Positions 32,601-35,600 of a DNA stretch of 64,000 bases are shown here, piece by piece. The notes below the pieces were generated by a model. That model was not told where the DNA came from. It saw nothing but the letters and a program-made list of their open reading frames with translations, and searched no databases. Numbering within the stretch: the first letter of the stretch is position 1; every line of letters starts with the position of its first letter. Position numbers and translations under genes: made by a program. The DNA lies in the NCBI RefSeq assembly GCF_963678975.1, contig NC_089272.1, positions 63,128,574 through 63,192,573 on the forward strand. Reading direction: 5' to 3'. This stretch comes from Dysidea avara (taxonomy: Eukaryota > Porifera > Demospongiae > Dictyoceratida > Dysideidae).

Positions 32601-35600
32601 AAAATTATCTTTTGCATGAACAGAATAGCTAGTTTACGTAACTAGTACAAATACCTTTCTAAAAGAAATTTTGCAAAACAAAGATTAATTCACTCTGTAC
32701 AGAAGTACAACTGTACATTATAATTTACACATGTACATATGCATTATAACAATAAGTGTTTTCCTTATAGACTGCACTTTGATTGTTCATATGATACAGA
32801 CTGCATTACTTTGTGTGAGTTACAAATACGATACCAGTATGCACATATAATAAGTACGTAGCTCAGAACCATTGCACAGTTTACTGCTTTAGAACTCAGT
32901 ATCAACCGTTCTATACATATGTAATTGGCAGTGTGAGGGATAAAATAACTGAGAGTTGTGATGCCAATTAGAGAAATCTCTGAGGCCTGTAGCCAAACCC
33001 ACATCATATGAAATGGACTGGCAACCATGCATGAATGCTATACGTAAGAGCTTTTAAGAGTTTTTGATGTTTGAAAGGCCCACTGACTATTACAATTTGA
33101 AGTTTACACAATAAGAAGTCTTTCCATACAAGTGTTTACTATAAAAATGACAGTTTAAAATGACAGCGTTCAATTTTTAGCAATGATGAAGATTAATGTC
33201 TAAGAAACAAGTTTATTAATCAATATGATTATTTAGGGCCATGGAGGTTTTGGGTTTGCACTTTTCACATACATATTAACCAGAAGCCAGCCTCATAGCA
33301 CCTTCAGGCAGCTTTGCTTGGGTAGAATGAAGCTCAAGGTGTCGCCAAAAATGCTTCCAATAACACAGCGAAACTCACTAATAGTTACGAGTTGACACGA
33401 TTTCCGTACTTGAAACCTGCCATTTCTCGAGATGAGCTAGACGTACGGATACGAAATAAATTTCATGATACATTGGATACGCCAATCGTATAAGAATCCG
33501 TAACTATTGCGGTTTGACACGATAATAAAATGGCCGAGACGACTTTGTCTTCACAAAGCCTAGGAGTCAAGCGAAATAGAAAGCGACAGTTTTGTGATCA
33601 CTGCCACAAAGAAGTGTCCAAGTCTACGTATTATCGGCACAAGTTAATGCATACAGAAGACTCGGATCTCGAGGAGGACGCAAGTAGGGAACTTCTGGAA
33701 TTCCCCGAAAATGGAAACGAAGAGGACTTTGTTGAGATATCTAACGTGAGTTATGCGTGAGCGTGAAATTGGTTGTAGAAAGAAAATTGGAGAGGGATTA
33801 CACGAAATAAGCGCCATCAAAGAAAATTTATACAACTTGAGTTGTTTGAACCGCTAAAACAGCCAGCTGTACAGTCCAACCAGCTCGGCAACTGGCTAGT
33901 CCTAGAGAGTGGAATCAGAAATCCCAGTGGTCAATTCTTCGAGCATTTTGATTAATTAACACAATGACCCATTACAATACTCGAGGTAAGAAGTCAGCAC
34001 ACATAATTTCTACATATCACTACTTCATATACAGGTATGGATGCCAACCGTGGCACACCTCAGGGTTCAGGTCGGACCATTCAATCATGAACTCCACAAG
34101 GCCGAGGTAAGAAGTCAGCACATGTAATTTCTACATATCACTACTTCATATACAGGTATGGATGCCAACCGTGGCACACCTCAGGGTTCAGGTCGGACCA
34201 TTCAATCACAGACTCCACAAGGCCGAGGTAAGAAGTCAGCACACATAATTTCTACATATCACTACTTCATATACAGGTATGGATGCCAACCGTGGCACAC
34301 CTCAGGGTTCAGGTCGGACCATTCAATCACAGACTCCACAAGGCCAAGGTAAGAAGTCAGCACACATGATTTCTACATATCACTACTTCATGTACAGGTA
34401 TGGATGCCAACCGTGGCACACCTCAGGATCCAGGTCGGACCGTTCAATCATGGACTCCACAAGGCCGAGGTAAGCAGTCAGCACACATAATTTCTGCATA
34501 ATATTATCACTACTTCATATACAGGTATGGATGCCAACCGTGGCACACCTCAGGATCCAGATCGGACCAGTCAATCACGGACTCCACAAGGCCAAGGTAA
34601 GAAGTCAGCACACATAATTTCTACACAATATTATCACTACTTATATCTAGGTATGGATGCCAACCGTGGTACACCTCAGGGACCAGATCACAGATTTCAA
34701 TCACAGACTCCACAAGGCCGAGGTAAGAAGTCAGCACATGTAATTTCTACACATCACTACTTCATATACAGGTATGGATGCCAACTGTGGCACACCTCAG
34801 GATCCAGGTCAGACCATTCAATCACGGACTCCACAAGGCCGAGGTAAGAAGTCAGCACACATAATTTCTACACAATATTATCACTACTTATATCTAGGTA
34901 TGGATGCCAACCGTGGCACACCTCAGGGACCAGATCACAGCTTTCAATCACAGACTCCACAAGGCCGAGGTGAGAAGTCGCAGACATATTTTCTGCATAT
35001 CACTACTTCTCCAATAGATATGGATGCCAACCGTGGCACACCTCGAAGATTAGAGCAACGAATTACTTCAAGGACTCGAGGTGAGAAGGCAACAGGCCAA
35101 ATTTATTCTGTGTGTTACTTGGGTACCACTAGGTGTGGATAATAGGAACAGTCATTTGGTTGGATTCTATGCGAGATCTAGACAAGAGCAGCATAGTGAA
35201 CCTGTGACCTCAGCAATTGAGGGGAAACTTGACCAGATGGCTGCTATGATGCAAAGTCAGCAGGAAGCACTATCAAAGTTTGCCATGGACAATCAGGCAT
35301 TGAGGATGACCGTAGAAGCCTTAAAAGAAGAAGTTGGGTCAATGAGAGAAGAGATAGCAAACTTACAGTCTGCCGGTCAGGAAGGTACCACACCAGATGA
35401 AGCACTTGCTAGCTCTAATGATGAACGTCTCGATACCAATTTGAGTGTAAGTACTACAGTATTCATTAACAGTTAATATTAGAGAAGCTTTTATGTAAGT
35501 GCTTAGGTATTAGTTGCTGCATCTTACTTGATTGCATCGCCATGTGCAGGTGGATTAATAAACTTTCATTTGTTTATTTACCTTGTGTTGGATTGATACT

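Follow-up and report, generated by a model that had tools for sequence, protein, structure and literature searches.

Tandem symmetric exons in the sponge Dysidea avara most likely encode the N-terminus of an accessory protein of a CACTA-type transposon

Why would a sponge genome carry a row of nearly identical exons, any of which can be left out without disturbing the reading frame? The question is raised by a tandem array in the window, the whole stretch of 64,000 nucleotides of Dysidea avara DNA analysed here (C1:63128574-63192573 of the 550.8-Mb assembly used for the genome searches). A preliminary description had reported nine near-identical exons separated by introns of about 50 bp. This structure was borne out, as eight of the repeat exons are 72 bp and one is 63 bp long, all nine run from phase 1 to phase 1, and each is preceded by AG and followed by GT. 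The introns preceding repeat exons 1-9 measure 49, 49, 49, 49, 55, 54, 49, 54 and 48 bp, and TRF scored the array independently (period 121, score 1544). Exons of 72 bp with identical phases at both ends enable the gain, loss or skipping of units without a frame shift. The array is far beyond what chance would produce, since the same exon-intron unit was seen as 175 exons in 23 genomic copies. The parts of the array in the window are the following:

33964-33985, plus strand: start exon, 22 bp, MTHYNTR-G, product of an internal deletion
34035-34106, plus strand: repeat exon 1, 72 bp, in-frame TGA at 34088-34090
34156-34227, plus strand: repeat exon 2, 72 bp, used in annotated protein P0014
34277-34348, plus strand: repeat exon 3, 72 bp
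34398-34469, plus strand: repeat exon 4, 72 bp
34525-34596, plus strand: repeat exon 5, 72 bp
34651-34722, plus strand: repeat exon 6, 72 bp
34772-34843, plus strand: repeat exon 7, 72 bp, used in P0014
34898-34969, plus strand: repeat exon 8, 72 bp, used in P0014
35018-35080, plus strand: repeat exon 9, 63 bp, last and diverged, used in P0014

The TGA in repeat exon 1 prevents the nine exons from forming one open frame, which extends across repeat exons 2-9 only.

The array is followed by an exon encoding a coiled coil. This exon occurs at 79% identity or more at at least 23 places in the genome (at least 19 at 93-96% and at least four at 79-80%), and at least three further matches have 37-41% identity, all among the best 150 of 177 candidates. 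The 22 other copies of the array were compared with that of the window, 20 as 10-kb stretches and two as short ones. Homology to the window starts at 33358-33364 in 17 of the 20 fetched copies. The exceptions are L032 (a long copy on C14, with its left arm 20 kb off), L036 (33416), and L043 (33763), in which no left end was found. Alignment showed that the flanks of the window copy and 17 other copies are unrelated right up to the terminal sequence CACAGCGAAACT, which speaks against the copies being parts of one duplicated segment. The right end is the inverted form of CACAGCGAAACT in the window and 17 other copies; it was absent from the sequence retrieved for L042, L044, L040 and L032. Left ends with at most two mismatches occur 23 times genome-wide, 22 of them beside array copies. 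The window thus contains a mobile element with the following parts outside the array:

33360-33363, no strand: left flank ATAA, a 4-bp direct repeat with 41710-41713
33364-41709, plus strand: whole transposon copy, 8,346 bp, with a sharp left end and a right end placed by the inverted terminal repeat
33364-33375, plus strand: left 12-bp terminal inverted repeat
33364-33530, no strand: left subterminal region, three TACGGA in all on the two strands
33530-33745, plus strand: left-over coding exon with donor GTGAGT, zinc-finger-like (C-x2-C...H-x3-H) by eye
35133-35446, plus strand: coiled-coil exon, phase 1 to 0
35640-35726, plus strand: next exon, giving the short-isoform end ...YKIANDNKY and stop, or spliced from about 35695 into the long isoform
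36138-37602, no strand: intronic segment, absent from 14 of 20 other copies
39194-41306, plus strand: 3' coding exons of the long isoform, with a basic region and then a tail ending AIFEDSD
41310-41709, no strand: right subterminal region, direct repeats and two TACGGA
41698-41709, minus strand: right 12-bp terminal inverted repeat
41710-41713, no strand: right flank ATAA

CACTA transposons are characterized by short inverted ends starting with CAC and by 3-bp target duplications. The terminal core of the D. avara element is CACAG, a variant of the CAC(T) start. A perfect 3-bp target duplication flanks 13 of the 18 copies with both ends read; the remainder are the window copy (4-bp ATAA), L029 (4-bp GTAA), L034 (TAG/TGG), and L038 and L036, which have none. 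L046 is inserted in a 31-bp satellite, the uninterrupted form of which occurs nine times in the window and provides the empty site with a single TCA. The window's own satellite array is located at 11736-14469 (about 74-83 copies), and another stretch of this satellite was the target of L046. The motif TACGGA, which was picked after the ends had been viewed, occurs five times in the 567 bp of both ends and not at all in the 7,779 bp of the interior. The CAC-starting ends, the 3-bp duplications, the end-confined TACGGA, and a Transposase_21 domain in the long C14 relative identify the element as a CACTA/EnSpm-type DNA transposon. The window copy lacks Transposase_21 and is non-autonomous.

The window holds several other mobile or repetitive sequences. 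A minus-strand ORF at 2278-4767 encodes a DDE_1 transposase with a Psq HTH (PF03184, E 7.8e-26), and an ORF downstream of it has weak PHD/RING-like matches below the cutoff. An 899-aa ORF of a non-LTR retrotransposon (6603-9302, plus strand) contains RVT_1 (E 2.8e-37) and an endonuclease domain. At 23658-25290 (plus strand), a THAP domain ORF is followed by a DDE_Tnp_4 transposase ORF. At 25468-27564 (minus strand), an ORF encodes a YqaJ nuclease and has a PHD match slightly under the cutoff; two more ORFs upstream perhaps belong to the same element. Dispersed 21-bp tandem repeats of the TTTTGCAATTGAATTCGTCGC kind are present at 18749-18932, 19260-19445, 29961-30069 and 54033-54143. A 121-bp inverted repeat (43722-44126, 88% complementary, 163-bp loop) resembles a hairpin element, and a ZU5-domain ORF is encoded at 58025-58756 (minus strand, E 3.5e-8). 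Rfam and tRNA scans of the window were empty.

The gene containing the array has multiple exons and no transposase domain, and is oriented as the transposase in the long copy. A Pfam search with the coiled-coil exon returned many weak coiled-coil-type matches, none of them above the cutoff. No DNA-binding fold was detected, as no Pfam match exceeded the cutoff. The AlphaFold model of P0015 has a mean pLDDT of 39.7 and is useless. Inspection by eye showed no hydrophobic stretch at the N-terminus of the protein that could serve as a signal peptide. An ATTAAA motif at 35731 is positioned just past the end of the short isoform, and the 3' exon of the window copy contains a second in-frame TGA (39518-39520).

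The zinc-finger-like exon at 33530-33745 has 26 genome matches among the matches listed and none in a Pfam search. It was considered as the first exon of the array gene and rejected, since the long element has the transposase between the two. In the long copy, about 21 kb separate it from the coiled-coil exon downstream. Its donors in the short copies are in phase 0 or 2, and therefore it cannot feed in frame into the phase-1 repeat exons. It is probably the first exon of the lost transposase gene.

The long copy on C14 has its left end at 1937556, the zinc-finger-like exon at 1937175-1937390, and an array of 14 exons at about 1916.3-1917.9 kb. An ORF of 626 residues with a Transposase_21 domain (PF02992, E 1.1e-14) is located between the zinc-finger-like exon and the array. 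The long copy also includes a region (L047:1797-5257) with a DUF7869 ORF (4475-5254, E 2.4e-19) and two ORFs without matches, on the strand opposite to that of the element; this region is probably a nested transposon. Positions 33364-33982 of the window are 98% identical to the left arm of the long copy on C14, and from 33982 on the window corresponds to the array region. The start exon is thus composed of the left arm, up to 33982, and of the array-exon end CGAG/GTAAG. In the undeleted left junctions of the C14 and C2:23.17 Mb copies, a different sequence follows ATGACCCATTACAATACT. The second of these (L064, C2:23169753) consists of the left arm with the undeleted junction and has no array beside it among the matches listed. 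The fusion of ATGACCCATTACAATACT to CGAG/GTAAG is common to 22 of the 23 array copies, which indicates that the start exon MTHYNTR-G and the short lineage go back to one deletion. The deletion spans about 19.6 kb as measured against the long C14 copy, which itself possibly contains the nested insert. In the long copy, a separate candidate start exon, MAARQGQ, was recognized by eye downstream of the transposase.

A diverged element at C14:7.877 Mb has a coiled coil that is 41% identical to that of the window copy, and a 25-bp start exon encoding MAGRQRLP, which MAARQGQ of the long copy resembles. Its array comprises eight phase-1 exons of 63, 60, 63, 63, 63, 63, 54 and 66 bp, which encode DTSGRTPPGRPDQHSRMGQGQ-type sequence, and possibly a ninth of 54 bp that was identified by eye. 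The symmetric-exon design therefore exists in two diverged families, and the units appear to have been homogenised within each of them. In a third family (C2:27.01 and 27.04 Mb), the sequence just upstream is transposase-like and by eye resembles the C14 ORF, one ORF has a sub-threshold DUF4218 match (E 0.00076), and the annotated protein is P0021; no tandem repeat was found in two 3.5-kb stretches. Neither the 19-mer GTATGGATGCCAACCGTGG nor P0016 had a match or relative in viral contigs. Eighteen matches of GTATGGATGCCAACCGTGG in bacterial genomes, all of Bacteroidetes type, were taken as unrelated.

The array varies between copies of the element. Including the last exon, the number of repeat exons is four in one copy, six in six, seven in two, eight in eleven, and nine (the window), ten and fourteen in one copy each. 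With our type letters for the units, the order is mostly ABCDEFEZ, modified by losses of A, B or D and gains of EF dimers. Introns of 47, 48, 49, 51, 54, 55 and 85 bp occur across the copies, and the 85-bp intron, in L042, holds a duplicated exon end. The preliminary description had predicted length polymorphism between individuals from unequal crossing-over; the variation that was found is between transposon copies (4-14 units), not between individuals. The unit number may have changed by unequal crossing-over, by slippage or by gap repair at excision. The same description had named, as a finding that would speak against it, the occurrence of the units as a genome-wide satellite outside genes. 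The units do occur genome-wide, but within the gene of the element rather than as a satellite in the 23 copies examined.

When the spliced product was compared with protein sequences and the best 8,000 candidates were scored, 17 clusters with 136 member proteins were obtained, all from D. avara. Absence from other species is weak evidence, because only the 8,000 candidates sharing most words were scored. In a second protein search (8,000 candidates scored), eight ENA clusters repeated sequences of the array family or the third family. The comparison of isoforms used one representative per cluster. For each of the 15 clusters that include the array, the representative can be assembled from exons of at least one copy taken in their genomic order, and 13 of these representatives skip at least one exon; P0003 and P0004 use all seven. 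P0014, annotated on a contig as long as C1, joins exons 2, 7, 8 and 9 of the window to the coiled coil; its units would fit the C14 copy too, but that contig has another length. For P0001, P0002, P0009 and P0011, three or four copies are equally good matches, none of them on a contig of exactly the annotated length. Four different annotated subsets of L044 each lack the stop-bearing exon 3, and P0007 skips the stop-bearing exon 4 of L034. Thus, where the copy was uniquely identified and the stop exon lay within the range used (L044 and L034), five of five representatives skip it. These isoforms are database models; reads are easily mis-mapped among near-identical exons, and gene predictors are built to avoid stops. 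The expectation of many repeat-number isoforms agrees with the D. avara models, which join the exons in many subsets, but it had been made without regard to the stop in repeat exon 1.

We consider it likely that the array is the 5' half of a TnpA-like accessory gene of a CACTA/EnSpm-type transposon, spliced in subsets of exons. Within this explanation, the array most likely encodes the N-terminus of the protein in the accessory (TnpA) position. The TnpA-like role is deduced from the position of the gene, the coiled coil and the basic region; no sequence relation to the tnpA family was found by Pfam or the protein search.

The array could instead be a neutral passenger, an inert VNTR in a dying non-autonomous element, with isoforms that are prediction artefacts and a protein without function. 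This is a serious possibility, although we regard it as doubtful. Thirteen of the 175 repeat exons, spread over 12 of the 23 copies, bear stops, and those of the window copy, in repeat exon 1 and the 3' exon, fit such decay. The pairwise pN/pS between 52 distinct stop-free exons, relatedness being ignored, is 1.62, and divergence within arrays is greater for exons than for introns in 17 of 23 copies and smaller in the other six. When codon positions were compared over the pooled copies, for the coiled-coil exon and the final three repeat exons, position 3 was not the most variable, which gives no sign of purifying selection. However, the donor is located exactly at 72 bp in 152 of 152 internal exons, 151 with GT and one with GC (L042 exon 7), despite several intron indels. 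The last exons have GT at 63 bp in 23 of 23 copies. In total, 174 of 175 donors are GT, one of which, in L029, reads GTAAAA, and 175 of 175 acceptors are AG; AG was required when units were collected, but it also precedes every repeat exon in the unfiltered list. Eighteen of 23 copies retain an open coiled-coil exon (that of L042 contains a stop, and those of four copies on C10, C15 and C7 are frameshifted), and the diverged family keeps the symmetric-exon design with a different sequence, which also argues against a passenger. The conserved features are exon length and splice sites only.

The variation between the stop-free exons (52 of 58 distinct ones) is concentrated in codons 11-16 and 19. 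It is conceivable, but improbable, that the array is a transposon-borne diversity generator, in which the variable core codons 11-16 and 19 lie in an invariant GMDAN-GTPQ ... QS-TPQGR frame, the units are shuffled between copies, and the variants are multiplied by exon skipping. If this were true, the element would produce a cloud of N-terminal tails that evade or titrate host silencing or track changing partners, and it would tolerate nonsense mutations by dropping the affected exon. We find it still harder to believe that the sponge has taken over one or a few copies as host genes. The isoform clusters map to few loci and one of them, P0004, has 67 members, which favours such a takeover; nevertheless, the codon-position comparison, made on pooled copies, singled out none of them, and the named related proteins come from D. 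avara only, among the 8,000 candidates scored. The original view, in which the array is part of one host gene whose repeat-number isoforms vary between individuals, matches the exon structure and the annotated isoforms, but it is barely tenable given 23 dispersed copies. Those of them with ends read show precise termini, inverted repeats and target duplications, which place the array in a gene of a dispersed CACTA-type transposon.

The sequences show that a single internal deletion removed the transposase and joined the left arm to the donor of an array exon, which created a new ATG exon able to splice in frame into the array. The deletion derivative then spread to at least 22 places. Based on the accessory-gene explanation, further steps can be proposed. 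Transcription presumably starts from the left end, formerly the promoter of the transposase. The pre-mRNAs would be spliced in many exon subsets, so that stop-bearing exons can be left out. The resulting protein may carry a disordered tail of variable length and pair through the coiled coil. By analogy with TnpA in maize Spm, the predicted protein would bind the subterminal TACGGA-type repeats and probably help a transposase supplied by longer copies.

Tandem exon duplication, alternative splicing and DNA transposons, three subjects usually treated separately, meet at this locus. Since one gene is present in 23 copies with 4 to 14 exons, the birth, loss and homogenisation of exons can be traced within one genome. 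With the deletion that made the start exon, nature provides a clear example of a defective transposon that keeps and re-wires its accessory gene rather than its transposase. The 17 clusters and 136 proteins also call for caution, as a sponge gene annotated with numerous isoforms can belong to a transposon.

Schistosome micro-exon genes likewise contain runs of small symmetric exons, the splicing of which gives many similar proteins. Most of their coding sequence is divided among very small symmetric exons, with a size limit of about 36 bp. The D. avara exons are symmetric as well, but differ in being near-identical tandem copies, of 72 bp, within a transposon. The portions of PMC4350168 used here describe micro-exon genes as genes of platyhelminths, the secreted or membrane-bound products of which have signal peptides; none is apparent by eye in the D. 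avara array protein. In the abstract and sections 2.2 and 3.1 of the D. avara genome paper (PMC12909245), the array family is not mentioned.

SmTRC1 of Schistosoma mansoni and other animal CACTA-related elements, as presented in excerpts of PMC1636069, similarly encode Transposase_21 and give many alternatively spliced transcripts, and SmTRC1 has a protein without a transposase domain and a tandem-repeat region. The short spliced transcripts of SmTRC1 probably derive from truncated copies (PMC1636069, same excerpts). Unlike the D. avara element, SmTRC1 has ends of the CCC type, with inverted repeats of 54 bp and duplications of 2 bp, and those excerpts of PMC1636069 contain no description of tandem exons. 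No description of tandem exons in a CACTA element was found in the titles and abstract openings of the one literature collection searched.

The closest parallels are with plant CACTA elements, namely maize Spm/En with tnpA and tnpD, snapdragon Tam1 and soybean Tgmt*. These share with the D. avara element short inverted ends starting with CAC and 3-bp duplications. According to the passages of PMC2613891 consulted, further common features are tnp2/Transposase_21 (here in the long copy), subterminal repeats, internal-deletion derivatives, and a multi-exon product without a transposase domain. In maize Spm, the same passages state, the tnpA product binds the subterminal repeats and is needed together with tnpD (PMC2613891). 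The transposase ORFs of Spm are located in intron 1 of the tnpA unit, whereas the long D. avara copy has the candidate start exon of its own downstream of the transposase. The D. avara element further differs from the plant elements in its ends, which read CACAG and not CACTA, in an N-terminus made from 4-14 tandem symmetric exons, and in a deletion derivative that keeps the accessory gene and gives it a new start exon.
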